A DNA stretch of 64,000 nucleotides, from assembly GCA_014871385.1 (NCBI GenBank), contig CM026421.1:15002548-15066547 (forward strand), read 5' to 3'. This DNA comes from Ceratodon purpureus. Its lineage: Eukaryota > Streptophyta > Bryopsida > Pseudoditrichales > Ditrichaceae. The position numbers were made by a program, and so were the translations under genes. This document shows positions 1-64,000 of the stretch, piece by piece; position 1 is the first letter of the stretch, and each line of letters opens with the position of its first letter. The notes under the pieces were generated by a model. The model saw only the letters and a program-made list of their open reading frames with translations, was not told where the DNA came from and did not search any database.

Positions 1-1851
1 GCTCCTTGGTCCTTCGGGTTTAAAATAAAATAGTCTAGTATATGGACACAACAACCTTTGGAGGTTGAAGGAGCATAGAATACATTGGAATTGATAAAAC
101 AAATACTAATTTCTTCAAATTTAGGAATCTATAGCTCTTCAATTCTATGCAAATGACATGATTTTATTTGAGATATCCAAAAGAACGGGCATTCTTGTTA
201 TTTGTAATGGAATTTGTGTTCTTACATGTTCTTACATTGATATTGTATTACAGATAATAGAATCATGTTGAATTAGATGTGCTTTGGTAAAACAGTGGCA
301 AGAATAAATTATTACTATATTTGACTATCACAAACTTCTTAATAGAAACACATTTTCTAATGATGATAAATCATTTTATAGATTATAATTAGAGAATTTC
401 CAATATAATTTGCAAATTAGGAATTTAGGCATATAAAATAACAATTTTGACACATTTTAAATTCAACTATTCAGATTCCAATGAATTCTAAGGATATAAG
501 CCAAGTTAATAGCTAAGTTATAAGGATATTAATCCTTTATAGATGTGACAATGTTTACATTGCCTCATTATATCATTTGATGATATAGCATCAAAGCCCT
601 TGCAATAAAGCTAGGCCTTGTCTTAAGGTCTTAACCTCTAGAGTTGGAAAGCCCCAAAACTACCAAAACCCTCAAAACTCGCCTTTTCTTAATACAAGCT
701 GTAAGTTCTCAAGTTTTGATGTGTATTGGGAGAAAACAACCGTAGCATCTAGTATCTTACTTGTACGTGTACATGTACTCCAAATCTTAGATTCAAAATT
801 CTTACCATTTGTGCGATCTTAATGTTCAAAGTTTGAAAAAAAGTTTTCTTCGATTGTTGCAATGTGGATTTGAAGTGTCTTGTGAGCCAAAAAAATCAAT
901 TTCAACAGTAAATCTGACTTGAGGCTCTTCAAGTACTTGTTCTGAGGTGGGTTCAGAATATGTCCATGCACTATTTACCTTCACACGGCCTATAAAATCT
1001 AAAGAAATGCTTGTTTTTTTCACATAGAGGTATGTTGAAATTCAAATACAAAGGCTTGTCTTTCATAGTAAGAAAGGCATATGGAGAAATATTTGGATTG
1101 AAAATCCAAGCAGTGGGATCATGCTTCAAAATATTATTTACGTGTCAAAAAACCACAATTTGAAATAAAGTAAAATCTCAATTTCGGTGGATATTTAAAG
1201 TTTCTATGATCTATTTAATTTTGGGCAAATTTTGAGGATAAATGAGCATATACTACAGTTTTAGGCAGATTTTAGATGGCCTTAAAAGTATTCTCAAACT
1301 TTGACAGCAAATATTTTCTAAAGTATGAAGAATTTTGAAGCATGATGGTGGTATTTCCTAAAGTCAAAAGTATTTAAGGTATTTTCTAAAGTATCAAACC
1401 AAAGTATTTAAGGAATTTTCTAAAGTATAAAGAATTTTGTAGATCCTGGTCATTTTGACTTTAGGGATTGATGACAAGGTTGGCCCTCCCTTCTTCCTCC
1501 CTTCATTGCTTCTAAACATAAAGGGCCTACGGTTTCCTTGTAGTAACTTTGACATTTTTAATGAAACCAAGGTTCCCAAATTAGTCTAGAGGGGTCCACT
1601 TAGTTAATTTTAGATTTTATATATATTCATCAATAGAATATTTACAAAAGGCATTTTTAGATTAAAACAACTAACAATTCAAGAGTAGTATTATGGATTT
1701 TATATTGAATTAATTTTGTTGCACAGAAATGAAGGCATTAAAGATGATTTTCAGTAAACAAATATGAAACTTACATCTTAAAGTTAATATTTTTTAATTG
1801 TGTCAAAAAATTTAAGCATAGAAATATTTTTTTGGGCATATATTATTGGTT
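1..1851. other. AT-rich gene-free stretch
   Basis: I see no coding region here; the few open frames are short and unlike any family. Around 780-850 there is a weak match to the internal part of the TTAA-ended elements further on (the sequence ACCATTTGTGCGATC followed by TTCAAAGTTTG). Around 1369-1428 a short unit containing AGTATTTAAGG and TTTTCTAAAGTAT occurs twice about 32 bases apart. Confidence 0.5.
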
Positions 1852-2020
1852 TTAATCCCTAAGGTTTTTTGTCTGTTTGTTTTGCCAAATTTGTCAAAAC
1901 TAACTCCATCTCATTTAAGGCCTAATAATTCTGAACATAGGCATCACTAATTAAATTTAACCGTAAGATCTTGAAATTAATCCGTTACTTTACTCACATA
2001 TCCAAATTGGATTGTTGATT
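1852..2020 (+). mobile_element. Possible truncated TTAA-ended transposon, left end
   Basis: The sequence TTAATCCCTAAGG at 1852 resembles the left end of the complete TTAA-ended elements at 7112 and 10175. About 100 bases on, AACCGTAAGATCTTGAAATTAA matches in part an internal segment conserved between the 4348 and 7112 copies. No matching right end was found; the CACTA-like element at 2150 follows. It is probably an old truncated copy. The call rests on one end and one internal motif, so it is weak. Confidence 0.3.
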
Positions 2021-2149
2021 TGTCTTCATTTAGGAAATCATAATGATTAAGAATGTTGAATTTTTATGCATTTATAGTTGAAACTTCTTTTTATCATACT
2101 TTGAAGCATGACCTTGTAAAATTGACATACAATTTATCTTGGATCACTT

Positions 2150-2303
2150 CACTAGTGGAAAAGGTGTACGAGTAAGCTAAAGGAGAATACCAAGCAGTGA
2201 TCAACTACACCGAAAATTTGAAATATTTGGTGAAATTGATCACTGCTTGGTATTCTCCTTTGGTGTTTTCCTTTGGTGTACTTGTACGCATTTTCCACTA
2301 GTG
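2150..2303. mobile_element. CACTA-like MITE (154 bp foldback)
   Basis: Both ends read CACTAGTGGAAAA in inverted orientation, and the arms continue as an imperfect inverted repeat through GGAGAATACCAAGCAGTGATCAA. Ends starting CACTAGTGGAAAA are typical of non-autonomous CACTA (En/Spm) elements in plants. The flanking triplets (CTT left, TTT right) differ by one base, so a 3-bp target duplication is possible but imperfect. It has no coding capacity. The transcript would fold into a hairpin and could be a small-RNA source (inference). Confidence 0.65.
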
Positions 2304-2350
2304 TTTGGCAGCTTGAATACAAATTTGGTTAAGAACAAATTACAAAAGAA

Positions 2351-2376
2351 TATATATATATATATATATATATATA
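2351..2376. repeat. (TA)13 microsatellite
   Basis: Uninterrupted TA dinucleotide run of 26 bases in AT-rich intergenic DNA. Confidence 0.95.
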
Positions 2377-4347
2377 ACATGAGGTAGATTCTAAAAAAGG
2401 AAAGTTTCAAAATTTCTACTCAATGAGTTTCCTTCTTGTGAAAATAGAACTCTCAAAGGATAACATGTTGTGAATTTTTAATGTTGTTTTATATGGACCA
2501 CTGATGTTAGTCAATAGGGTCTCCCAAAATAAAAGAAGGGAAGAATCCAACCACTTACATGCACTAAATACAACAAACTTGAGAGTGACAAAGTTTGGTT
2601 CACATAAGGTTTTCTCTTGATGGAAATTTTCCATAACGGTTAGCTGCCCCAAATGATGCAACTACTTTACTCAGGAATATCCTGCGCGTGCACAACATTT
2701 TGCAATGTAGTAGATTCAATTGTTACTATCAATATTCCAAGTATATTAAAGGAATTTTGACATTCTAAGCTGGAACAAGATCAATCACTTGCACTTCCAA
2801 AGGATAGAAAAGTCCACGCTCTGGAGGGAGTGGGAAACTATGTCAATTACAATGGATGCATTTTTTACTATATTTTATTTTAGCCAACCCCGTCATAACG
2901 TCTATTTGCGCGTTTAGCAAAGGTAGGGTGATGTTATAACTAGATAAGGATTCTCCGCACATCAGCTTAATTGTACATGTCAAGATACCATTGCAAAATG
3001 CGTTACAGAATACGGACCCATATCCCATGTTCTGCTCTCCAGGAGCACCTCCATGCTTGAATTGTGCATGCCAAACTTGTCAAGGATTCACCGGGAATAA
3101 ACTCCCAAGTAACTGCTTCTATCGTACAAATACTGGATCTAGAAACTCCAGAAATTTAGTTACCATGAATGGGACGGTGCAAGGACTATCTTTAGAGAAG
3201 TTGTGAGGTCAGACTCAAACAAACAACTTTCTCAGAAAATTGAATTTTGAAGCTTGAGGTCTTGGATGGAAAATATTGTTTGTGAGAATGGTAGTAAAAA
3301 CATGTGACAACTAGACCAAAAATCTTCATTTTGAGAGATGTGATTTGATTGGTTGTTTGAGAATTTATGGTTTTGGAACGAGGTTGACATATAATTTATG
3401 TTTCTTTTTGAAAATATGTAATCTTTCTTGACTGTTTGACGGATTGTAAATGTGTCACTAAATATTCTTGAATTTTTTTTGTTTTTGTTTTTTTTTTAGA
3501 CATTCTACATTTTACATGTTATTTCTATTTTCACATTATGCACTCTAAAAATGCATTCATGATTTTTTTAATAGAAATATGAGAAATCTTGAAAAATTAC
3601 ATAAACAAATGTTCATATCAAGAGGATTCATACATGTGAAAATATTAATTTAATATATTTAAAATCATTCAAACATTACATGAACAAAATTTCAAGCCTC
3701 CAATTGTTTTATGTATTTTTCAAAGTGATACTTTAATTTGAATATCGTTTAGAATTTTTTAAGAACCTGTGACATTATTGATTATACTAGAAATAAATAA
3801 TCATTTAAAAAATCAAGTGTAATTGAGATTATTACAAGGTAATGGACCAAAACAATAACAATTGAAAAAAAAATCATTAAAATTGTTATGAAACAAAGAA
3901 GAATTCTATAAGTTTTATCATTACATTCTTTAACAATAGAAAATTTTCACCTTTGTTTAGAGATGAAAAAACTATATAGTTATCTCATTGATTGTCTTTT
4001 CCTCTATGTGGAGGCAAGAAATAAAAATGATCCTGAAAGGTTGATGGGGTGTTTCTTTCTAGGACTTCACTGCCATTGTTATTTAATTTGAAACCAACTT
4101 TTAGATACCTTTCAAAGTGTTATGTGTATTTTTGTAGAGGCGTTCGAAGAAGTCTCTAAGGATATTACGAGCGGCCTCTTTATTCACTTCAAATGGTCAA
4201 ATTAAGGTTCAAAATAATTATCCAACTCTTAAATCTAAAAAAATTCCTTCTTTACTCTCGAATGGTGTCAAGAATTAATTTAACGTTATTTTGAAAGAAT
4301 ACAAATATAATATAAAAAATATTTGTAGTGTACAAATGCTAACATAT
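2377..4347. other. AT-rich gene-free stretch
   Basis: No gene, RNA or clear repeat was recognised. The small open frames here (for example minus strand 2843-3028) have no recognisable domain. The local C/G content rises a little around 2660-3200 without any coding signal that I trust. Confidence 0.45.
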
Positions 4348-4695
4348 TTAACTCCTGAAGGTTCAAGCCGTTTTTGGACCTCCAAAACCAAAAACTGAGA
4401 TTTTTGACAACCTTGTAGAAGTTGGAATATGGTTCTTGTTTTTTATTTTTTTTGGTACATCCAACCGTAAGATCTTGAACCTAACTACCTGAAATAACTT
4501 CATGTCAAATTTCAACGGTTGGATCTTTACCATTTGTAAGATTATAACATTCAAAGTTTTGTTGTTTTTTGTTGTTTTTTTTTTTTTTTTTTTTTTTTTT
4601 TGGCTTTGCGCAAAAGGCATACTCTAAATGGTGCCATATAGGCTGCTTGAAACAACCGAGAGCCATTTTGGATTTCCGGAACCTTTAGGTGTTAA
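4348..4695. mobile_element. TTAA-ended transposon, subfamily A, internally deleted (348 bp)
   Basis: It starts TTAACTCCTGAAGGTTC and ends GAACCTTTAGGTGTTAA, so the 17-base ends are inverted repeats with two mismatches and TTAA stands at both borders. The interior matches the 937-bp element at 7112 from its left end through the CCAACCGTAAGATCTT...TTTACCATTTGT block and again at the right end. The middle roughly 590 bases are missing. A 27-base T run (4575-4601) sits inside. TTAA target duplications are the hallmark of the piggyBac superfamily (also of Kolobok). It has no coding capacity. Confidence 0.75.
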
Positions 4696-6042
4696 TGAAA
4701 ATCTTGATATCATAGTCAAACTGAAGGTGAATTTGCAAGTACTATAGTACTTTATCGAGGAGAACACTTCTTGTATATTTTCACGTGCAACGGTGGGGTA
4801 TTTTTTTTACTTTTGGGGGGGGGGGGGGGGGGGGGGGGAGGTGCTATTTACGTCCCAGAAAGCATTTAAAGGAATCCTATTATTACATAAAGCAAAAAAA
4901 TTACCCATATTATCATATCTATCATTATTTATAATCTATAGGTCGACAAAATATATTAAAGGCTATTTTCTTTGTAAGGAAAAAAACTAACTAAAAAAAT
5001 AATGAGAATACAAGTGACTAATAAATACCTTATAGGAAAAAAGATTCAAATGAAAACAACGCATGAATACAAATACAACACAAATACATGCATGAAAAAC
5101 AAGACATTATGGTTGATGAAGTATTGAAGAGATTGTAGGCACAATACATGTTTGAAAACACAGACATGAAGTGCATCTATCAAGTATGACCAAAAATATA
5201 TGCCTAGTTTAGAAAAGATTACATCTAAGATACGGCGTTCTAATGCCTCACTAGAAGTGCCTTCTTGAACTTGTCAATGCTATCCACTAGCATAGCACTC
5301 GATTTTTTTTTCTAGAATCTAATTCTTGTGCCCCTAATTTATATTTACCTAAAATTTAATGACCCTATTTTTCGGTTTCCTATGTTACTTATAAAGGACA
5401 TGCCACTTTCAATGTACTCTAATTTATATCTAAATTTATTAGAAATTTTAATTTAGTTTATTCAAATATACCCTATATTCCGTTGCATGTAGATTGTTAA
5501 AAACAATAAGTGTCCTCTCCTAGAATACCTTATCACTTTCTCTATTTACAATAGTTTTACTTACATTCTTGGTTTGGAACTCCCATAATTAAAGAATTTT
5601 CTGCTTTTGAAATTTGGAATTTGGAATCCCTAGAAAGACACTAAAAATATTATTTCTTTATGGTAATAACTATGTAAGTTATGATTGCATGAAATTGCTC
5701 AATTTTGGGAATTTTAAAGAATAAATTCACATGGATTTATAAAAAAGGAGAACCGTTTAAAATTCCATTGCTTGTTTAATGAAAATGAAATTTAGACCAT
5801 TTTCATGGTCTAAAAGAATATATTTTAAAAAAATCCCAAAAATCCTAAATACACCACATATTGAATCATTTTACCAATTTTTTAAAATTATTATTATTAT
5901 TATTATTTTTAATTTTTTTTTTGGGTGTGGTTATGGACTCATATGTGATGTAAAATTAACCTAATTAATTCCAACAACACCTGAAAAAGATGACATCATA
6001 TTCCCAAAATTCATTCACAGCAGAAAAAATTAAATGAATAAA
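4696..6042. other. AT-rich gene-free stretch with low-complexity tracts
   Basis: No coding region is supported. It contains the G24 tract at 4815-4838 and an (ATT)n-like run at about 5886-5910. Otherwise it is unremarkable AT-rich DNA. Confidence 0.5.
4815..4838. repeat. Poly-G tract (24 bases)
   Basis: Twenty-four consecutive G on the plus strand after a T-rich stretch. Runs this long can form quadruplexes and are error-prone in sequencing and assembly, so the exact length should be treated with caution. Confidence 0.9.
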
Positions 6043-10174: not shown

Positions 10175-11122
10175 TTAATCCCTAAACGGCCAAAGTCTTT
10201 GAATGGGCTTTTTGAAATTTCGAGCAAGTTCCTACGATGTCAGTTTTGGATGTAAGTTTCTTAAATTTTTTGTGGACGTAGGGACTTGCAAGAACTTCGT
10301 GAGAGTATAATTTTTTTTGCACTAGACATTGAAAAAAATATTTATGGTGCCCAAAGTGGTTTTACTACTTCTTCAGCAGCTCCAAAATTTTGATACACCC
10401 TTCAACTACCTTTGAGATTTTTAGTGCAAGTAACTAACATGATTAGTTTTGAGATTATCTAAAAAAACATTCTAATATTGTAGAAGATTTTCATTCTATA
10501 AAGAGCTAAAGTTTTATCAATTTTTTTGGTCAAGCATGAAAAAATGTATTTCTTTATCATATAAAAGATAGAGATTTTGTTTTTTTTTCCTTTTTTTAAT
10601 ATATTTTTTTAATTTTTTTTACTTTAAGAATAGACATAGACCTTTGTTTTGACCACATGGATTTTTATTTTAACAAAAAATGGTTTATCAAAAAAATAAA
10701 ATTAGTATTAACAATAACATGAATCCATGTTCCTTGTACAATGTTTATCACAATGCTACGCCTTTTTTTTAAAAATCTAAAATTTGGTGCACAAGTAACT
10801 AACATCATGTACATCATTTTAGTACAAAACCTCCAACATGTATAGTGAAAAGAATTTACTCAAACAGAAGTTAGACTCAGTTACTCATATTTTGAAAGGA
10901 TTAAAAAGAGCAATGTTTCTTATTTCAAACTCTATAATCTTCTAATCCACACGGTCAAATTTATTGAATTTTTTTGTGCATGTTAATTTAGAAGTCTTAA
11001 GTCGGATCCTAAGTTTTGAGATGCAAAGGCAATTTTATTTTTGATTTGTTCACTCTTGCTTGTGAAATGATAGTTTCTGGAGTGTTTTTGGTGAGAAATG
11101 ATCACAGCCGGTTAGGGATTAA
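10175..11122. mobile_element. TTAA-ended transposon, subfamily B (948 bp)
   Basis: It starts TTAATCCCTAAACGGCC and ends CCGGTTAGGGATTAA; reversed, the end reads TTAATCCCTAACCGG. Inverted ends and TTAA borders are therefore present. The interior aligns with the 58465-59390 element: GAATGGGCTTTTT near the left end, a CTTTTTGTG-type segment, GGTGCCCAAAGTGG versus GGTACCCGAAGTGG, and ATAATCTTCTAATC near the right end. No transposase frame is present. Length and ends match subfamily A, but the interior differs. Confidence 0.72.
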
Positions 11123-33514: not shown

Positions 33515-34225
33515 GGAGGTGTTCTGCGTTGAAACGTTGGAGTGCACTATTGAAGAAGTGGAGCAAGATATGCATTAGTGGGGAGGTGAGACAGTACCAG
33601 CGGTGTCAGGTTTGCTAATCGCAGTTGAAAGCAAACTTAGAGTTGTGTTTCTTGACGCTTTTGATAAATTGAATCTAGATTTAGCGATCTCAGAATTGTG
33701 ACACTCTTACTAAACAAAACCAGTTTATGAGTGTCTCCTGGTCCAAGTGTATCAAACCAGGCTCAAACAGATAGTTGGAACAAGTTGTGCCCGTGGGCCT
33801 CTACACATGATCAAACCAAGATGGTTTGAATAGTTTGAACCTTTTCAGATGCAGCTGGATTATAGTTTCTGAGTCTTAGTGTAAAATATGAAAGCCTCTA
33901 ATAGCGAAGGGCTTAGTTCTGAACAAGCTGGATTGGTTTAGTTCTGAATTGTGTGAAGGCTAGGCTTCTCTTTCTCAGTGGACATTTGTTAAAAATTCGA
34001 ATTAATTTCCTATTTTTAATGCTCAAACTTGAACTAAGTGAAGGATTTCGCTGTGATTGAAAAAATCTGGCAGCCAAGACACCAAAACCATTTATAATTC
34101 AGGGTGGGAACATCTGAAGTGTTCGATGCACGTTGATGTCGGTGTTGTGCTTTGAATTATTAATTGACAGTGCCTCAGTATTAAATACTGGGAGACGCAG
34201 GTTAGGTATGCACATTGGGAGCGGG
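33515..34225. other. Gene-free stretch
   Basis: Downstream of the PhoD-like gene. Probably its 3' untranslated region at first, then featureless DNA. Confidence 0.4.
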
Positions 34226-34308
<83 letters not shown>

Positions 34309-34622
34309 AGAGAGAGAGAGATAGAGCTCGAGAGAGTCCTTGCTCTCTCGAGCGAGCGAGCTCTCTCGCTCCTCCTCTCGAGCCTCACGCGCTCTCTCTC
34401 TCTCTCGATCTCTCTCGCTCTCTCTCTCTCTCTCTCTCGTCTCGCTCTCGCTCTCGTCGCGCTCTCTCTCTCCTCCTCGCTCCCTCTCTCTCTCTCTCTC
34501 TCTCTCGCGCTCTCTCGCGCTCTCTCGCTCTGCTCCTCTCTCCTCTCTCTCGCTCTCGCTCCTCCGCTCGCGACTTCTCTACGCTCGACTCTCTCTCGCT
34601 CTCTCTCTCACTCTCTCGAGAG
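34226..34622. repeat. Large (GA)n to (CT)n compound microsatellite
   Basis: A short (TA)n, then about 80 bases of GA repeats, a GC-containing junction with CTCGAG (near 34330), then about 290 bases of CT-rich repeats with interspersed CG. The switch from purine to pyrimidine on one strand makes the two halves roughly complementary, so the tract could fold into a long hairpin or triplex. The apparent long open frames of Arg-Glu or Ser-Leu here are artefacts of the repeat. Confidence 0.93.
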
Positions 34623-37600
34623 GACCTTCCAGAGTGTTGACATGGGTACGTACACGCTGGCAGGAAACTGGCCAAATCAAAATTTTAATGAAGTAAATTT
34701 CTCTTGTGTTGATGATTCTGTTTCCAGAGCTGTTTGGGCCGGCTCTGCACGAGTCAGTTTATGAATTGTTATTGTTAGAACTTACTTTTAAAAAAATACG
34801 TGATGAATTATTATCATTACTTCCAGTGTCCAATCGTATTCGCTCCGTCTATTAGTTATGTTGAAGTTCTGGAATTGAAGTTCGAGTGTCTGTTGCCGAC
34901 AGAATTCTTGGTTGATTAAAGCGTTTTCTTAATTTGCTCATCAGGAGTTGCATGGCAACAGCGTTCACTTCCTGTGAGACCTTTTTTTCCTGAACCTGCA
35001 TGCACGACGATTCCAGTTCCATGGTGTCCGTTTAACAATTTTAGAGTGATTAGTGATTACTAGTCTGCTGGACCTGTGAAAGGTGACACTGGAAGTTGAG
35101 CGGATCCTGATTACAATTTCACCTCACGCTGATCAATTCTCTATTTCCTTACAAACAACTGCGATGAGTTGGGGCTGAGACGTTATTCTTGAATTATGTT
35201 CCACATGGCTGATTTTTTTGCTGTGAATGATATTATGTGCCAGGTGAACGTGGACTTGATGGAGGTTCCTCACCTTGGAACTCCGGTAGCGTCGGTAGTG
35301 GCACCGGAATAGAGAAGGATAGACACAAGGTGGCAGTTTTCTTGAGAACATTGAGAATGGACGTTGAGTGAACTTTGCCTCGGTTGCCTCCAAAAGACCT
35401 TGAGAAGCATTTGTTGTCAATTGCAAGCATACTTCCATAACTGCCTGTAGAACCACATTCCACAATGCATATAGCGCTGTAATAATGGCTATGAATGGCC
35501 AGTATCATAGTTGTTGACAGAACCTTTCATTTCAAAGTAACGACCATTTCTCTGACTTGTATTACTGCATCAATATTTCACTGTGAATTTCCAGATTACC
35601 GTATTTGATATCTCATTTTGGGGAAAAGGGTTTTTAGGGAAGTCCGAGAATCTGGAAACACACAGAACTATGAAGTGGATCAGGTAAGTACAACTATGAA
35701 CCCATGTAGACAATTGTGGCATATGCTCATGTCCGGCTTGTACATTTCATTGTCTCCCAAACAAAACACATATGGGACGGTTGGGTGCTGCCTACAACAA
35801 GTAGGTATATCGTGCAAATTGAGCTTCCACGCTTTTTGAGAGTGACAAATCTGAGGTGAATAAATTACGAAAAACACGTAATTAGTGGTTTGAAAGAATA
35901 CTGTATTGTTTCAAGTGAGATTATTGGTTCATCACTTCTTATCCTAATTCCTGTCTTGATGAATCGCAGTTTCCTATACAACAGCGTGGTGGTGATACCT
36001 GTGGTATGGTATTGCTCCATTCTAGCCCATAATCAAGGCTTATTTTCTGTGCGCCACTCCCTTCACCATGGCGGACGGAGCATACTTTTGAACGTTTATG
36101 GAGTGCTGTTTAGTTCGCTACATCGACAATATGACACGTCTTCCAGCTACTGGTCAATCTGCAACCTCTTATGATTTTGTCGATTCTAATGGAGAGCTTA
36201 TATCTCTTATACGATTCTTATATTGTCTCATAAAGTATCAATAACTTCAAAGAAAACATGATGCATGCTTAAATATATCATGTATTTTAAAAACATTGTT
36301 CTGCTCTTGTTGTTCCTCAATAGCAGTCCAGTACAAATTCATTCCTAGACATAGAATTCAAAGCACTTCTGGTAGCTCGCCAGTTGGGTTGTACATTTAG
36401 TTGGTTTTGTCTCCAGTTTAGTTACGCAATTCAATAGTATTGTCCTGTGTACGCATTTCAAACAAAGTAGGCTGCCTGAAAAACTAAAACGTTAGTCGCC
36501 CTGCCTCCATACCTGTTATTATTGAGCTGATAGGGACTGACTTTCTGAAATGTTGAAACTGGCTTTGTTTCAGTTAACCTAGCAGTTCACTGGAAATCTA
36601 ACAGGATTCACATAACTTAAGCCCATGATACTCTTTTCTTGTTAATTTTTCTCTCTCCTGAATCCTCTTATGTCAGTGCCAAACAGGTGCAAAACCTGAC
36701 TCGACTAAAAATGTTCCGAAGTCTTCAGTTACTGTTTTGCCCAACAGTGAATATTTTCAAGCGTTGTGCAAACCATGCAGAGCTTGTCACTTGGCAATCT
36801 ACTTTGGAGTGGTGGATTTCGAGACAACTTTGTAAGCTTGTTCAAGTTCGTCTTGAACCAATCCACAAGTTGAAATTTTCGTGGTAAACGAGGACATGAC
36901 TTGGTCAGTAGTGGTTAGATCATTTGACTTCCATTCCTACATGTATCTGGATGCACTCCACAATTCCGGACAAGCCTCCAAGTAGCACTTAGAGTACAGC
37001 AGCATCACGCAACCTCATCATCTCGATTCTCAATTCTATTTTGGTTCTAATACTTTCAAGAGACTGATTAACGGTCTGTTCACAATATAATAATCTTTTA
37101 AAAAAGTTTACGACGTTCTGTTAAACCACTATCAAACGAATGTCTGATCGACTTTTTTCTTGCCATGGACACATCAGGCTGATGAAAACCGGTCTTGGAG
37201 CAAATCCCTCAAAAGCGGCTGTGTCTCTGTTATATCAGTTCGTCACATGGAGTTCAGATTGAATTTGTTCCACCTTTTGAAAAATCTATCAGACAGGACA
37301 ACTTCGGCTACACCAATAATGGAAGTATTATACCCTCGGCACTAGTCAAGGTACTTTAGACCAACCAATTCTTACAATTCACAGTCACCAAAACAGAAAT
37401 CCAACTTTCTATATTTTTTTTGTAAATGAAGGATATGTATCTACTAAAAGAATACCCATACTTTACTACTAGACCCCCTATTCTACAGTATAGGCCTATC
37501 CATAACTACCACTTCACAAGAAATTATCACTCACATGGAGGTGTGTAATATCCTTGAATTAATTTGTTTTTTTTTTCCTTTGTTTTAAGAACTAATGTAA

Positions 37601-42499: not shown

Positions 42500-42652
42500 T
42501 TCTGAGTGAGAAGAGAGAGACGACGACGACGACACAGCGAGCTTGGAGCTGTTGCAGACTTTTCCTGGCTATGGCGGGTTCACCGAAACCCTAAAATCCT
42601 TCGCTACGCACACGAATTAGGATACGAATCGACTTCGGGATACTCTCCGCTC

Positions 42653-43660
42653 ATGAGCATGATGGAAATGGCGTCGCCGTCGGATGCGACGGGGAGCACC
42701 AGCGTGCCAGGCGACCTAGTGCTCGTCACTCGCCCTCCTGCGTTCGGCCTGCCAACAGCGTGCCCCGCGTGTCTCCCCGCGTTTCTGTACCTGCGCATGG
42801 CTGCAGTGTCCTTCCAGGAGCAGGTGACGGCCGTGGAGCCGGACTCGGAGGATCTGCCTTCGGTGGAGTATGGGGAGAATGTGGGATTCGCGAGCGAGAA
42901 TGGGGGAGTGGTGGAGTTTCTGCGGAGGGAGAAGATCGTGGACTTGGACGCCGGGCTGAGCGACAGTGAGAAGGCGGAGCTGGAGACGTGCAAGGCGATG
43001 ATGGAGTCGTGGGTTGCGGATGCGAGTGCGTATGAGCTTTGGATGCGGGACAATGACCGGCAGTGTAAGGCGGTGTATTTTGCTCAGTTGCCGTGGGGTT
43101 TGGTTCAGGCGTTGGATTGGAAGCAGCGGGTTGCGGTGATGCAGCGGCTCGGGGTGACTCCTGAGAATGCTGCTGTGAGGTCGGAGGAGTTGTATAGGAA
43201 GGCCGGGAATGCTTACTCTGCACTTTCGGTTCTTCTTGGTGACCAGAAATTTTTCTTCAATAATCGACCGACGAGTCTGGATGCTCTTGTGCTCGGGCAC
43301 CTTCTTTTCCATATGAAGGTGCCGTTCGAGATTTCGACTTTGAAGGGAGAGATTTCTAAGCACCAGAATTTGGTGAATTATGCTGAGTCTTGGAGCAAGC
43401 AGCTGCTGGGAGAGGACGGGGCTCCGATTGACGCTGCGTTTCAACCCAAGGTGCCACCGCCTCCGCCTCCCCCTGCGAGGGCAGCGCCTGCGAAGGAGAA
43501 GGAGAAGCCGGCTAAGAAGCCGAGGAGCGAGAAGGATATCTTGTTCAAGAAGCGGGCGAAGTATTTTGTGATTGCGCAGTTCGTGGCTGTCTTGATGTAT
43601 GTCGTTTTTGCGGGTTTTGAGGTTGAAGGTGACGACGAGGTTGGCGACGATGATGAATGA
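42653..43660 (+). CDS. MTX1: Metaxin-like mitochondrial outer-membrane import protein
   Basis: A metaxin homologue of the SAM/TOB-associated import machinery, anchored in the mitochondrial outer membrane with its GST-like part in the cytosol. It is an intronless frame of 335 residues (Arabidopsis metaxin is of similar length). The frame is open further upstream to 42506 but has no earlier ATG. MSMMEMASPSD starts at 42653; ATGs at codons 3, 4 and 6 could also serve. Thioredoxin-like N-terminal region with GLPTACPACLPAFLYLRMA, then VEFLRREKIVDLDAGLS. The C-terminal GST-like helices include FFFNNRPTSLDALVLGHLLF, the typical metaxin motif. Next come PPPPPPP and a Lys/Pro-rich linker, then one membrane segment (KYFVIAQFVAVLMYVVFAGF) and an acidic tail. 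An AATAAA at 43843 may be its polyadenylation signal. GC-rich coding sequence contrasts with the AT-rich flank. Confidence 0.92.
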   Translation: MSMMEMASPSDATGSTSVPGDLVLVTRPPAFGLPTACPACLPAFLYLRMAAVSFQEQVTAVEPDSEDLPSVEYGENVGFASENGGVVEFLRREKIVDLDAGLSDSEKAELETCKAMMESWVADASAYELWMRDNDRQCKAVYFAQLPWGLVQALDWKQRVAVMQRLGVTPENAAVRSEELYRKAGNAYSALSVLLGDQKFFFNNRPTSLDALVLGHLLFHMKVPFEISTLKGEISKHQNLVNYAESWSKQLLGEDGAPIDAAFQPKVPPPPPPPARAAPAKEKEKPAKKPRSEKDILFKKRAKYFVIAQFVAVLMYVVFAGFEVEGDDEVGDDDE

Positions 43661-49535: not shown

Positions 49536-51617
49536 TCAAATGGAGGCACAATTCGTTGACGTGAAGCCAAGTCTGCTTCGCCCTTTGTCGAAGATGAGTT
49601 GGTGGTTCTGTTGCATCACATTCCCTATGATGTTATACGACGAGAACCTCGAGTCAGTGTATGTGTCTCTGGAGAGCATAGCCAAGCACAGAATGGTCTC
49701 ACCCTCGTCCATATACATGAAAAGATTCTCCGCTGAGCAGGAGTAATCTGCTGATTTTGCGAAATGCAGCACTGCCGACGGTAGGACGGGATTCGAAACC
49801 TCCGCCACGTTGTAACACAAATCCATCCCCTCGTGAGATGTTTCTTCGTACCTCTTCATCTCCTTTCGCACTGCATTGCGTATGAAATTGTACGCCTCAT
49901 CTCCGAAAACGGACAACGCAATCCTCGCGTCAAAGGCAACACCACCAGAGAAGGCACCCCGTGGAATGGACAACCTCCTACCATTGACGGTGATTCCTCT
50001 TAAACCCACATCGTACCCCGTTTCGACATCGACGATGGGCGTGTACACCACACCCGGAAGAGTCCTCACGTTCCCGAACAACACCGACGTGGATTGATTG
50101 GAGGAAATCTCGGCAGCGAGCAAGCAGTAGGAGAATCTGTCATGTGATACAGTCTGGTTGAGTTGTGAGAAAAGTGAGAGAGCCCCTGGTCCTAGCCCCA
50201 CAAAGCCGCCCGCATTCGCATTGCCACTTCCATTCATGCCCGAGAGGTCGTAGTACTCGTGGCTACATCCAAATGCAAAACTGCCAAGGCTGATGTTCGT
50301 ATCCAAGGTTAGTGAATCCGTCACGAAGTCACCAAGGCTGGCCGTATCCTCGCCGTATGGAGCTTCGTCCCCCGCCCAATCGAAGTCATACAAGCATTGG
50401 TTGCTCTCCCCGCACGAGTTCCAATCCGGTCCTTCAACTTCATCTCCAAAACTCTGCACATCATCGTAACAGTAGGTCAGGCTGGGCCGGTTACAAGAAA
50501 CATGTTCCACGAATGGGGGGACACGGCACTGAGTTTCTGTATGATGCTGCAATTGGAACAAGAGAGCTACGAGACATGCATGCACAGTAATTGTGGACGA
50601 GTGAAGAAAGTCGAGCATAGACCATAATGTGGGGCTAAATTTGCAAGACAGTATTCTCCAGCTACAGAGGTGTCTGACTCCTATTGACATGGCTCACTTT
50701 CTATTGGGTGTGAGCACAAATTGGCTTCGACAATTGTTCTACAGAAACCCCACCTGCCCCCCCGAAACTCAACTACTTCGTTTCACCCCATGTTGAGTGT
50801 AGAGTTCCCTTGGATGGCTTGCAATGATCTATCTACTCTGCGACCAAATTCTCATCTCCATGATTGATTGCTCTCTCCACATACGACTACGATGTGAATT
50901 CTATACCATTGTTCATTGTCTGTGAACTGAACCTAAGTAATGGGACCGAAACTCCGATCATCGAGCAACAAATTAACCACTGAACGAAATGACCCAATTA
51001 ATTCACAAGCAATCTTGACAAAATGCCAAATAACCCAGAGGGATGTGCAAAGCTCCCACACATACCGGGCAAGCACGGCTCGTGCAGCTGATATTCCGGA
51101 ACGTCGTCGACAACCGCGGGTTAAACATCGCGCCACGCTGCTCATAACACCCTTGACCATCAACTTCACCACACGGCAAACACTGCACCCACACAACGCT
51201 CTCCACCGTGCTCATCACAGCAGCGAATCGCTGCGGAGGAGTTCCGATCTTCAGACTCATCACATACTCCCCATCACCCATATCAAGAACTCTCCTCATC
51301 CTCCTCCTCCTTGCCCCACCTCCCCCATCGCCAACATACTCACGACTCCTCCTCACAGACCTTGCAATCCTATCCTCCTTGGATGCACCCACATACAGCG
51401 GCGACGAGGGATGGTCTCGGTGAAGAAGCTCAACACTCAGCACACGATGATCATTGGAACCATCACCATGAGCTCCACTGCTCATGTCTGTGAGAAATCC
51501 CTCCACATGTGCAAGAGCAGGTTTGCCATCACCATGATGCCGAATAGCATGAGCTTCATGGTTGGCGATGGCGATCACCATGAGAAGCTGCAGAAGAGCG
51601 ACTGTGCGGATCGCCAT
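49536..51617 (-). CDS. Secreted nepenthesin-like A1 aspartic-protease fold protein, catalytic motifs lost
   Basis: Pepsin-fold protein of the plant nepenthesin/CND41 type, probably secreted. Two exons on the minus strand, 51617-51066 and 50546-49536; 520 residues with a codon-aligned GT..AG intron. The start MAIRTVALLQLL opens a signal peptide of about 24 residues ending HEAHA. A prodomain (VLSVELLHRDHPSSPLY) precedes GEYVMSLKIGTPPQRF. At the first active site, where the family has DTGS before WVQC, this protein reads VMSTVESVVWVQCLPC. At the second, where the family has DSGT, it reads FDARIALSVFGDEAYN. The fold landmarks are intact: paired cysteines, FAFGCSH, GFVGLGPGALSLFSQL, SYCLL, and NIIGNVMQQNHQLIFD near the end. 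The frame is open throughout, so this looks like a maintained pseudo-enzyme rather than a decayed gene. A role such as inhibitor, as in xylanase-inhibitor relatives, is inference. Confidence 0.88.
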
Positions 51618-52515: not shown

Positions 52516-53964
52516 TCATAGCATAAGAGGACCTGCATCGTTTGTCATGGATGCAACGAGAGCTGCAGGACGGGCGGAGAAGCTGGTTGCTTTGGCGTAG
52601 AAGTTGCCACCGCCTGTGGAACCGGAGTCCGTGAAGAAGGCACCATCCTGAAAGACGTCGCCCACGCTTCTCCAGTTCCACTTCTCCCATCCATCAATGC
52701 TGCTGCCGTCGTCCTGGATGCGCTTCGTCACCTCCTTGAACGTCCCAGCCATGAAGAAGTTGCCTTCGCTGTTGACGGTCGGGCCCTCGCTTCCACCGAT
52801 GGCGTACATAAGCCACGGACTATAGAAGTTGTTTACGATGTGGAAGTATCCAAACCGACATCTGAAAAACGCATCAGAGAATGGGCCATGGATAAGTTAC
52901 GACTGCATCATTTGGAGAAAATGTCGTCAAGGATAGTGCTCACAGGTTTTCATGTTCAACCTACCTTGGAATGCGCTCAACGAGACCCTCGCCGAAGTGG
53001 TTGAATGCAACAGTGACCTGCATGCCCTTGTCGAAGCTGTCCTTCGGGTGACCTCCCAGAAGCATCACCTTATCGTGCTTTGTGAAGTAGTTGTTCGATA
53101 TTGTAACGGCAGTCGAAGCTTCAGTGACATCGACCAAACCATCGGCACACTGGGACAGGAAGTTGTGATCAATCCAAATGTCGTGAGATCCATAAATCGA
53201 GATGGCGTCGCCGTCGGCCTTTCCTCTATCTCCGAAGTGGTCGGGGCTGCCTCGAATCACAGCGGGCCCTGTCTGCTTGATGTCGTGGATGTGCACGCCG
53301 TGGATGATCACATTGTTCACGTGTTGGATGGTAAGGGAAGCTCCTCCAGCTATGTGCACATTCACGCCACGCCCATCTATGGTCTTGAAGCTGTTTACAA
53401 TGAGTTCATTCTTCAGCTTGATGTTCATATTGCGGGAGAATATGATCCAGAGAGGCTCAGTCTGCAGAGCGCCGTATCGGAGGGTCCCAGGTGCGGGGTC
53501 GATTACATCGTGGTCGGTGTCGTCCGTCACGACATATATTGCCCCATTCTTGCCGCCGATGGCGTTTTTCCCAAATCCGACAGCGCAGTCTGCAAGGCCT
53601 TGCCGGTTCGACCTCCAGTGCGGATCGCACCTCCAGCAGTCGTCGATTGGGTTGCCTGTTCCGCATCCGGAGAGCACTCTTCGAGTGTAGTTGTCGCTGG
53701 TAGCAAACACGTTACTGCTGCATAAGAACAATTCAGAGGTCAGCCATGTGAACAGAAAACAGAGTAGCCATGGCTTCGGTGCAATCAGGCTCACAACTTT
53801 CGAAGTACTAAAGCTACTAGCTGCAATGTATGTTACCTTTCATGGATTTCTTGAGCACCATTTTCACTGGAGACAGCTCTCGAGGACTCATCAAGTGGCC
53901 GAGCTGCCCAACAGAGTGGCAGCATTGCAACCAGCAAGAGCAGTTGCAGTGAGTTTGGCGCCAT
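52516..53964 (-). CDS. Secreted pectate lyase (polysaccharide lyase family 1)
   Basis: It cleaves de-esterified pectin by calcium-dependent beta-elimination in the cell wall. Three exons, minus strand: 53964-53837, 53717-52965, 52861-52516; 408 residues, phases consistent. The signal peptide is [20 protein letters not shown]. The PL1 landmarks appear in order: [115 protein letters not shown] and [21 protein letters not shown]. The Asp residues of DGDAIS and the CADGLVDV segment are the expected calcium ligands, and Arg in RIPRCR is the conserved catalytic arginine. No motif is missing, so the enzyme looks functional. It lies tail-to-head with the aspartic-protease-like gene, another secreted protein. 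Confidence 0.95.
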
Positions 53965-58464: not shown

Positions 58465-59390
58465 TTAACCCCTCAAGGACAATAGTCCTAGAATGGGCTT
58501 TTTTAGAATTCGGGCATGTACCTGTGACTTCAATTGAAGTCAAATTTTTTTTAAACTTTTTGTGAATATAGGCCATAACAAGAACTTTGAGGGAATCTAT
58601 TTTTTTTTCAATTGGACATTTATAAAAATAGTAATGGTACCCGAAGTGGAAAAAGCTGCTCGATGGGCAATTCGGGCAGCCATGCTAAATACATCAATTA
58701 CCTCTGAGAATATTTCTATAAATACTTCATAATGTCATCTTTGAGGTTTCCAAAAAAAAAAGACTTTGAGTGCATAATGTTCACTCCACAAAATATCAAA
58801 ATTTTCTCACCGTTTTGGGCAATGTTGTAAAAACAATTCTTCTTTCCTTTATAAAAGTTAGAAAAAGTATTATTTTAGGTTTTTTCTTTTTTTCAGTGAA
58901 AATATGAACATCAATTCTTAATTTGACCGTTTGGATTGGGCCTTTGATAAATTATGGAATTTCTAGGAAAGAAATAAGATTTAACATTCTTGTGTATTCA
59001 ACTTAACAAAAATATTGTTTTGAACATGCTACACTTGACTTTTGAGAGTGATTTTTTTTATACAATTAGCTAACTTAGTCTTCTTTGACATGCATCAAAA
59101 CCCCAACAATCTATAATGCAAAAAACCTAAGAAAAAAAAGTTAGAGTGTGTCAACCTAGTCAAAAATCTTGTCAAAAAGTTTGTTTTCAAATTTCAATTG
59201 CTATAATCTTCTAATCTCTACGGTCGATTATATTGAAAATTTTGGAGCTGTCTATTAAAATAATCTAGTTGAAGATATTACGGTTATAATTAGAAAAAAT
59301 GAATTTTTAGTCATTCATGCTTTCTACATTGGAAATGGCAATTTTGGAGCGTTTTTTGGTGAAACATAGTTAAGGAACTTTAGGGGTTAA
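58465..59390. mobile_element. TTAA-ended transposon, subfamily B (926 bp)
   Basis: It starts TTAACCCCTCAAGGAC and ends GGAACTTTAGGGGTTAA (reversed TTAACCCCTAAAGTTCC), so inverted ends with TTAA borders are present. The interior aligns to the 948-bp copy at 10175. Length and ends match the family. No transposase frame is present. Confidence 0.72.
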
Positions 59391-60920: not shown

Positions 60921-60959
60921 TAGGAACTGCAAAATATTAATTCCTAAAATTCGTTGACA

Positions 60960-61150
60960 ATTTATGTTCCAAAAGTTTCAAAATCTGCCATTTTGATTAA
61001 GAATGGTTTCATTTTTTTTTTAAAGTTTTTTTTGGAGTTTAAATGTAGGATCTAAGAGAACATGATATTCAAAGTATGTCTAATTTTTTTCATGATTTTT
61101 GACCACACGGATTAGAAGATTATAGCGTTTGATAAAATTTTAAAAAATAA
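60960..61150 (-). mobile_element. Possible inverted fragment of subfamily B
   Basis: The minus strand contains CTATAATCTTCTAATCC followed by GTGGTCAAA. This matches the segment near the right end of the 10175 copy (CTATAATCTTCTAATCC, then CACGGTCAAA). Ends are missing. Weak. Confidence 0.3.
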
Positions 61151-61519
61151 TTTGGGCAATGCCCGACCAAATGAGCAAGGTTTGACTTCTCAAGGAATGT
61201 GATTTCTCCACTTTACAATTTGGTGCTTTTGTAATTTCAAAAAATAGACGTTGTAAAGTACATGTACATCAAAGAAAAATGTACAAAAAGAGTCTAACAA
61301 GAATGAAATAAATGTTTCTAATTTCTATAGGGAATTCTGCAACACATTCACTTTATTTGCTTTCAAAATTCTAGTAATTCCAGTTTTTAAAAGAAATGAA
61401 ATCTGAGCAGTGATTACAGTGCCAACATCATATACTTAAAGTTGATGGAAAAAAATATTAATAATGTTCAAAAAACAAGCTCTAAATAAGTAACTTGAAT
61501 AATTACAGAAATTTAAGGA

Positions 61520-61985
61520 TGGTGCAAGGGGTAGAGGCCTGGGAATGAACGGTCTAGCCACTCCTACTGGACGCCCACCTATACAAACCCCTGACCCCGC
61601 AAAGCCCAATCCAATATCCTTCAAATCCTCGCCCATGTCCATCTCCCTTCCTCACGAGTCACGACCCGTCCCTCCTCCGTAGCCCGATCCTTTCCTCCAA
61701 CTTTCAACCCGACTACCCTTATCTGACCTCCTACTCCTACTACCCTTGCCCTTGATCCCCTATACCTCGACCCCGTGCTCAAGTCCTTTCATGTTTCTTC
61801 TCCGACCATGCTCTAGCCATCCCTCGTCCTGATGACAGGGCAAGCATTTCCCTCTCCGCTCCCGTCATTTCGCCAAACACAGAGCGTTCCACCCCCTCCT
61901 TGCAGCCCTAAATCCACGAGTCACCCCAAAGCACCCTCGCCCCATATCCCATCACCTCCTCCGACCTAAAGGAACCTAATTTTGT
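61520..61985. other. C-rich, strand-asymmetric block
   Basis: About 460 bases that are strongly C-rich and G-poor on the plus strand, standing in AT-rich DNA on both sides. No conserved protein segment is evident in any frame. It could be a fragment of a GC-rich element or gene leader; the identity is unknown. Confidence 0.5.
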
Positions 61986-62296
61986 CTCTGTTAGAGAGAC
62001 ATTGGCTGTGAGGAACTCAAAAAAACGCATTTTCTCTTCCCTACTCCTTCTACACCATATCTTGTGTAAATCAAAGTGTAGACACTTAATAGTAATTTTT
62101 TGGATTACTTTGCTTCTATGAAATTACTATTAGAGGAATTTGAGGTTAAGGCTATATAAACTTTATAAGTACCATATAGGAGAAACAGACAAATTACAAA
62201 AAGAATGAGAGGAAAAAATTGACTGTACTACATTTACTCAAATAAATGTAAATATTTTGAAGGCCAAAACAATTTAGATAACGTGAAATAAAAAAC

Positions 62297-63420
62297 TTAC
62301 ATTATCAAGCCTTCACCGACAAAGTTCATCATGATACCTTCGGAACATGTAACATTTGTCACACACATGTATTTGGAACCGCATGACCCGCAATAGTAAA
62401 TCGGCCTCTTTCCGGTGTTAGTTTTGACATTGTTGCATACCACGCAATGATTTCTCTTTCTTGAGTATATAGGAAAACATAAATCTTTATCTCAAAGGAT
62501 AGCTATAATGTCCTTGCATTTGCATCCATTCTAATTTCGTAACAAAGCCTCACACAATTATGTTCTAAACTGTAAATCCGTCGTAGGTTTACGAAACGGA
62601 GTAACAAACTTACATTTGTCAATGTATACCAAAAACATATTCACCACGGTCTTGTCTGGTTAAAAAAAAACAAATCGGATGCCACCACTTGTGCGATCGG
62701 TTTTTGGATGCAATATGAGACTTGAAGTTGGTCTGCTCCATCAACTCTTTGCATGTGAGTTATGTACTTTAAGTGCATGGGTGATGTGGGAATGTTGTCA
62801 CAAGTTGTTCCATATCGACACGGTACGGTTTGGATAGGCAAACATGGAGTTGTAGTCAGTTAGGCATGAGCTCATAGAAGAAATATTGATTTTTGTCTTT
62901 CCATACCACCATTGAAATTGACCGCGATGCATGCATTCTCCAATTTATCCACCTTTGTTCATTCTTCATATAAACCTTGGTGTTTTGAAACACATTAGGC
63001 AAATTTATGCGATTAGATCACATAATTTTCGTTGCATAAATCACTAGACTTAACAAGTTCTTGAAAAGTTCGATACTTGTAAATAAAGTTGTCCATGGCA
63101 TGTCCGTTTCCGCATATATTGCTTGTAAGATCTAATACTACTTTGTGTGCTAATTTCAGCTCACCTTTAGCAACCTGAGGCCCTCTTTCTTGCAAACATT
63201 TAGTCAAATCCATAAATTGGAAACTTCTCATGATGCTAAAGATAATAAAACAATGAAAAATTAAATTCTATTTATGCCAATACAATTTGATATTTAGTTA
63301 ACACTTCATTTCCATACACAACCAAATTGCCATCATAAAAGCTTTCAATTCTTGCACTATAAATTTCCTTCCATTCTTCACCTCCCATAGTATTCCCCTA
63401 TCCATCAACCTCCGTTGCAT
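62297..63420 (-). pseudogene. Degraded piggyBac-family transposase
   Basis: Minus-strand segments in the right order match a piggyBac (DDE_Tnp_1_7) transposase. First is GRKFIVQELKAFMMAIWLCM (63420-63298), the N-terminal conserved region. Next is LKLAHKVVLDLTSNICGNGH followed by AMDNF and FQEL (within 63231-63013), the GxGHxVxMDNF motif. Then come SNRINLPNV and VVWKDKN (about 63015-62885), and MQRVDGADQLQVSYC with VVASDLFFF (within 62841-62641). Last is a zinc-ribbon tail HCVVCN...YYCGSCGSKYMCV ending in a stop at 62297. Several stops and frameshifts interrupt it. Roughly 150 residues, including the region that should carry the first catalytic Asp, are missing between the first two pieces. 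No terminal repeats were found. It is not functional. Confidence 0.82.
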
Positions 63421-63847
63421 AGGGGTTTGTTTCTCTCACAATGTCCCATAGTACCATAACCAAGGGTCAGCTTCGACACCCCTTAGTTGAATAATTAATT
63501 CATTTCAAAATTTAATGTCCGACAGTAAAAAAAGTAATTTTTTGAATTTCAATTTTTTTGAAAATATAATTAATTGGAAGTTCGACTTTCATCTAGAATT
63601 GATAAATTTCATCAAATGTTTGTTATTTTGTCATCTTCATTTGAAAGTGACAGCCGCCCTTTCAATTAACTTACTCTAAGCATTCATTTTGCTTTGCTTA
63701 ACCAACCCAAATTTCAGTGTTTTTCATGGAGTTTGCTTGTGCAAGTGGTTGTTTGTCGACATTCTTTTGTGAGCTTTACAATACTGTAAGTATTTAAATT
63801 TGTAAGAGTTTGTTAATTGTAGGGCTTTGATTTGAATGATTGATAGT

Positions 63848-64000
63848 ATGGCTAAGCAACAGCTTTTGAGCAATATGTTCACCACTATAGACAAAGAAGA
63901 AATGGAAGATAGGGTTGAGCGTAACTTCGCACAGATGCATGTGAAGATGGACTTGGAGCAATCTATGAAGGTAGAAGTTCAAAAGCGAATAATGGGTAAG
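63848..64000 (+). CDS. Partial open frame running off the right edge, unknown
   Basis: From ATG 63848 the frame stays open for 51 codons to the window end (MAKQQLLSNMFTTIDKEEME at the start). The sequence is highly charged and predicted helical (…RVERNFAQMHVKMDLEQSMK…). I do not recognise the family. An N-terminal fragment of another transposon protein is possible given the surroundings, but this is a guess. Confidence 0.45.
   Translation, partial: MAKQQLLSNMFTTIDKEEMEDRVERNFAQMHVKMDLEQSMKVEVQKRIMGK

Follow-up and report, generated by a model that had tools for sequence, protein, structure and literature searches.

piggyBac is classically an animal element that also serves as a standard genetic tool; it excises at TTAA without a footprint and reinserts at TTAA. 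A decayed transposase of this type in a moss raises the question of what the remnant belonged to and how such elements came to reside in a plant genome. In this study, the question was addressed for a window of 64,000 nucleotides (the whole stretch of DNA analyzed, C1:15002548-15066547) in the Ceratodon purpureus assembly, which comprises 362,488,568 bases in 151 contigs. The feature is almost certainly a dead, once-autonomous DNA transposon of the piggyBac superfamily, 4651 bp long and flanked by TTAA, which belongs to a large population resident in this plant genome.

Identity of the transposase remnant

An earlier note, made from the letters alone, had described a piggyBac relic consisting of five ordered segments. 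When the minus strand of 62297-63420 was read in three frames, all five were found in the order given, and the order and strand are therefore retained; the number is not, as more than five exist. A further segment, LWDIVRETNPYATEVDG, lies upstream of the five at 63451-63401, LNIKLYWHK follows MAIWLCMEMK, FTSIELFKNLL follows MDN in a different frame, and SHKWWHPICFFL, TVVNMFLVYIDKCK and LQFRT-LCEALLRN complete the additions. The features of the remnant are as follows.

62309..63460, minus strand: transposase remnant of eight segments in three frames, with seven stops
63190..63191, minus strand: junction of an internal deletion of about 293 bp relative to locus L033, with loss of the first catalytic Asp block (TIDEMM)
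63085..63111, minus strand: GNGHAMDNF block, second catalytic Asp kept (frame reading and PDB alignment of kin)
62728..62748, minus strand: RVDGADQ block, third catalytic Asp kept (frame reading and PDB alignment of kin)
62331..62446, minus strand: C-terminal zinc-finger motif CxxC...CxxC...C..C..H, seen on the joined reading and frame-shifted near its end

The eight segments were joined across six frame changes, with the seven stops entered as X, and the only Pfam family reported for this reading was DDE_Tnp_1_7 (E = 7.4e-16; 58.8 bits against a cut-off of 22.4). The choice of frames could inflate this E value, and more weight is therefore given to the unjoined comparison, in which transposases of the same genome were matched by tblastn to the raw relic DNA; the matches were colinear from 63454 to 62345, with a best E of 4.2e-60 (a BLAST value for linked pieces). 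Among six single pieces compared with Pfam, four had no match and none matched DDE_Tnp_1_7; one matched Albumin_I (E = 0.063) and PapD-like (E = 0.17), and the C-terminal piece had Baculo_ME53 as its best match (E = 0.028) and zf-Tnp_2 as the next (E = 0.059). The six unjoined whole-frame translations of 62309-63460 gave a single Pfam match, to Albumin_I at 0.36. A phmmer search of the relic against the PDB returned no piggyBac chain and a weak match of the zinc motif to ribosomal L37Ae (E = 0.31), and no close relatives of the relic were found in the viral contigs searched. The C-terminal zinc ribbon of the earlier note is present as a motif but stays below the Pfam cut-off; the PF13842 zinc finger does not reach significance in the relic.

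The catalytic residues were located through intact kin. The transposase of locus L004 matches piggyBac 6x67 with E = 1.2e-28 and piggyBat 9c0f with E = 7e-26; we take 6x67 and 6x68 to be the transposase of Trichoplusia ni piggyBac, and piggyBat is presumably a bat element. By residue counts on the printed alignment, the residues D268, D346 and D447 of 6x67, assumed here to be the catalytic residues, align with TIDEMM, MDNFF and GVDVAD of L004. The first Asp block, identified through this alignment and intact kin, lies within 293 extra bases that L033 carries between relic bases 63191 and 63190. The D-D-D triad of the relic is consequently incomplete, the first block being deleted and the second and third kept, and because of this deletion the relic is regarded as a dead descendant and not a working member.

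Extent, termini and interior of the dead element

The interval 62297-63420, to which the relic had been assigned, does contain most of the remnant, but homology begins at about 63460 and the unit is the element at 60937-65587 (4651 bp; C1:15063484-15068134), which extends past the end of the window.

60937..64000, minus strand: part of the dead piggyBac element within the window, delimited by end alignments to kin, with TTAA at both ends of the element
60937..60961, minus strand: 3' terminus, TTAA and degraded TIR (TTAATTCCTAAAATTCGTTGACAAT, compared with TTAACCCCTAAAGTTCTTTGACTAT in L027)
63463..64000, no strand assigned: start, within the window, of a multi-copy repeat of about 940 bp (63463-64402), from matches to query 2527-3466

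The other end of the element, TTAATCCCTAAAGGACAAT at 65587, lies outside the window and was found by matching to intact kin. The relic termini are degraded (TCCCTAAA and TTCCTAAA, compared with CCCCTAAA and CCCCCTAACG in kin, which are CCC-type TIRs), and a TTAA target-site duplication is present at both relic ends, as it is in the kin.

These termini bear on two other readings of the remnant. Pfam describes DDE_Tnp_1_7 as 'Transposase IS4', and the remnant could accordingly come from another DDE superfamily that merely shares this IS4-like fold. However, the kin match the piggyBac and piggyBat chains, and the TTAA target site, the CCC-type termini and the C-terminal cysteine motif contradict such an origin, which was rejected as highly improbable. 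A domesticated, PGBD-like host gene derived from piggyBac would be in keeping with the survival of coding-like stretches and of two catalytic residues, whereas six frame changes, seven stops, an internal deletion and TTAA termini are found; this reading was also rejected and carries almost no weight. The identification as a piggyBac relic is upheld by the DDE_Tnp_1_7 match, the TTAA and CCC-type termini and the intact kin.

By homology, intact members would move by cut and paste of the piggyBac type, in which a D-D-D transposase would bind CCCCTAAA-type ends and the element would be excised at one TTAA and then inserted at another. The relic copy is no longer mobile because its first catalytic Asp block is lost, its frame is broken repeatedly and its termini have decayed.

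A genome search with the 4651-base relic gave 79 matches, with 40 of 1573 candidates scored; among these, the relic itself aside, nine matches have base 1 as their exact start and one (C6:98087219-98087281) has base 4651 as its exact end, in support of the two termini. The nearest kin among the fetched loci are L033 (74.6 and 77.7% identity in two blocks) and L039. In a tree of 40 rows, all from this genome and with a warning from the tool about the long relic branch, the relic was grouped with L033 and L039 within group B (described below) with support of 95/98, and DNA identity agrees with this placement. The relic thus falls into one subfamily of the population, with L033, L039 and a copy at C6:98082506-98087281 among its nearest kin.

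The repeat of about 940 bp at 63463-64402 occupies the expected place of the N-terminal coding part of the relic. Neither a terminal repeat nor a target-site duplication was found for it, and beyond it a search for N-terminal transposase code gave no convincing match (best E 0.022). At the position of this repeat, the kin copy has a stretch of about equal length (C6:98085045-98086037), for which no match was reported.

The piggyBac population of the genome

A profile search with PF13843 yielded 998 candidates; the 116 that were scored all exceed the Pfam cut-off, so that the copy numbers given here are lower bounds. By a recount of the table, the domain is free of stops in 93 of the 116 copies and interrupted by a stop in 23, in accordance with the expectation of the earlier note that intact relatives exist elsewhere in the same genome. 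No PF13843 match was found in any of 14 control genomes, and each of contigs C1-C13 carries at least one scored copy.

Intact-looking exons in the window encode a metaxin/Tom37-like protein (42506-43660), a TAXi-type aspartic protease (49536-50693) and a pectate lyase (52961-53839). The latter two families presumably indicate a land plant, and on this taxonomic basis the window is taken to be of land-plant origin, which agrees with the earlier description of the genome as plant-type. The classical association of piggyBac with animals would suit a stray animal or fungal contig in the plant assembly. Such contamination was rejected and is scarcely credible, since the relic has land-plant genes as neighbors and is embedded 15 Mb deep in a contig of 29 Mb, and scored copies occur on all of C1-C13; in addition, its nearest DNA kin, in a search confined to this plant genome, are in the same assembly.

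Flanks were examined for 20 loci (L009-L028). TTAACC-type termini were recognized by pattern at both ends in 11 loci, whose elements measure 3.9-6.8 kb; six loci had a single usable end and three (L015-L017) had no usable pair by pattern. For L010-L013 the other end was outside the fetched sequence or not found, and the second end of L021 was recognized by eye instead of by pattern. Three groups were distinguished by their ends: group A (L021-L023; TTAACCCCCTAACG ends, about 4.6 kb), group B (L009, L019, L020, L027 and L028; TTAACCCCTAA ends) and group C (L010-L013; TTAACCCCTAAAAAACC ends). L010 and L011 are 99.9% identical over 5821 bases, with the alignment ending at TTAA on the single side where an end was seen, and L010 and L013, on different contigs, are 99.1% identical over 4972 bases. 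L022 and L023 share 95.5% over 4650 bases, with both limits of the match within 2 bases of TTAA. Recent movement is likely because near-identical copies occupy different places, and these identities point to probable recent piggyBac activity in this genome.

Within L009, two group-B elements (214-5532 and 5529 onward) stand head to tail and share one TTAA; the two have equal BLAST scores to other loci.

The transposases of the kin are well preserved at the catalytic positions: all three strict Asp motifs were present in 41 of 45 sequences, a set that includes overlapping loci, and were absent in L035, L044, L047 and L049. The 17 long frames measure 506-1207 amino acids from stop to stop, and in many of them the N-terminal part is long and of low complexity. 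A C-terminal cysteine/histidine motif occurs in 15 of these 17, as well as in the joined relic, and is absent in L022 and L023; a Pfam search of nine intact ORFs at E 0.01 reported only DDE_Tnp_1_7, and PF13842 was not among the results. In ten of 20 pairs, the older ones with finite dS of at least 0.14, dN/dS was 0.03-0.14, four of these ratios being rough because they rest on saturated dS above 1. Eight younger pairs gave 0.14-1.16, one further pair had saturated dS and one had no synonymous change. The pattern agrees with purifying selection in the past, the power for the newest copies being low.

An ESFLEAPRRS start is common to the group-B frames. ATG does not occur for 154-189 codons in four of them and for 488 in L027, which suggests a possible upstream exon in the group-B transposase genes.

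Compared with Trichoplusia ni piggyBac (6x67), the plant kin have the same DDE_Tnp_1_7 core with three aligned Asp residues, and the plant elements share the TTAA target, CCC-type termini and a C-terminal cysteine motif. The plant frames differ from the 594-residue chain of 6x67 in their range of lengths and in their N-terminal parts, and the window relic differs in lacking the first Asp block. The same differences apply to piggyBat, to which L004 is related in its core, as noted above.

The tree within the genome has about ten separate branches. On balance, we favor the reading that piggyBac in this moss forms a species-rich population, active recently and perhaps to this day, and that it is a long-term land-plant resident and not an animal-type curiosity. 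On this reading, the population is made up of some ten deep lineages, its long transposases are intact and carry large N-terminal extensions, and it is accompanied by swarms of short non-autonomous elements whose ends match. A recent horizontal arrival from animals or protists, in place of an old resident plant lineage, appears rather unlikely. Some copies are 99-99.9% identical and piggyBac is patchy in plants, as far as the print found goes, both of which would suit a transfer; the diversity among the branches, in a tree of sequences from this genome only, is deep, however, dS between some group members is saturated and old relics such as the window copy exist. Long residence is argued from these three observations. 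Several independent entries of piggyBac into the plant genome are conceivable.

Short elements and piggyBac in other plants

The window also contains shorter sequences with piggyBac-type ends.

58465..59390, plus strand: non-autonomous piggyBac-type element of 926 bp, with TTAA ends, TTAACCCCT, and termini like those of L027 and L009
7112..8048, plus strand: non-autonomous piggyBac-type element of 937 bp, with TTAACCCCTAAAGGTCCA at both ends
4348..4695, plus strand: older, degraded short element of 348 bp, with TTAACTCCT and TTAACACCT ends
10175..10275, plus strand: left-over group-B piggyBac terminus, TTAATCCCTAAACGGCCAAAG

No transposase match was found in the window below 62000, the short TTAA-CCC elements included. 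The 926-bp element matches L027 or L009 over about 110 bases of one end and 58 of the other; its family has at least 40 copies, counting that in the window (40 scored of 3215 candidates), all 40 of which cover at least bases 8-920 and are 88-100% identical. The two ends of the 937-bp element have 18 matching bases, and its family likewise has at least 40 copies with the window copy included (40 scored of 2606 candidates), each covering at least bases 9-923 with 86-100% identity. Both elements are MITE-like in combining TTAA, a common TIR, the absence of a transposase and many copies of one length. Relatives from the same group probably supply the transposase that mobilizes the short TTAA-CCC elements in trans; for the family at 58465-59390, the shared ends suggest group-B enzymes.

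In L020, a 929-bp short element, TTAACCCCTAAATGC, is nested at 1706-2634 within the group-B element. It is absent at the matching place of L019, where the flanks align at only 153/243 positions and no clean TTAA is seen.

The earlier note had called piggyBac seldom described in land plants. This is fair, but the superfamily is not absent from the literature, as shown by the portions of the following papers that were available. PiggyBac is among the superfamilies found in all groups studied, of which land plants are one (PMC4438587); 1230 PiggyBac repeats are given for the fern Ceratopteris (PMC6890710); angiosperm MITE superfamilies include PiggyBac (PMC10004981); and insects, fungi and plants are named as sources from which piggyBac has been isolated (PMC10813416). 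Other plant genome papers mention piggyBac in the text retrieved and may list PiggyBac repeats (PMC9845207, PMC5963338, PMC3325252, PMC12873296, PMC8319324, PMC6294377). Two further mentions, 'piggybacking' in PMC10619864 and a vector in PMC13325672, do not concern native elements in the extracts at hand. A description of native moss piggyBac was not found in the partial texts searched, and the repeat annotation of the Ceratodon genome may already name the families described here. Like the angiosperm PiggyBac-type MITEs, in the available part of PMC10004981, the window elements are short non-autonomous members of the superfamily; unlike them, they are accompanied here by full-length transposase copies with matching termini in the same genome. 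As far as these excerpts extend, land-plant piggyBac is already known at the level of annotation, and the abundance and integrity seen here are unusual for a land plant.

If a land plant carries numerous copies that look intact, are diverse and are young, it would be a source of piggyBac systems native to plants and would test vertical inheritance against transfer of piggyBac in plants. Furthermore, autonomous and non-autonomous partners could be matched by their ends within one genome.

Contig C6, of 110,524,308 bases, makes up 30.5% of the assembly, the other large contigs seen being 16-29 Mb. In the part of PMC8000587 available, the U and V chromosomes of Ceratodon purpureus are each given as more than 100 Mb, about 30% of a 360 Mb genome. 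C6, the putative sex chromosome, carries 19 of the 116 high-scoring copies, whereas its length would predict 35.4 (binomial p = 3.8e-4), a shortage that applies to well-kept copies only because 116 of 998 candidates were scored. Elsewhere in the window, a long GA/CT-type repeat at 34092-34764 gives rise on both strands to spurious open frames rich in RE or SL.
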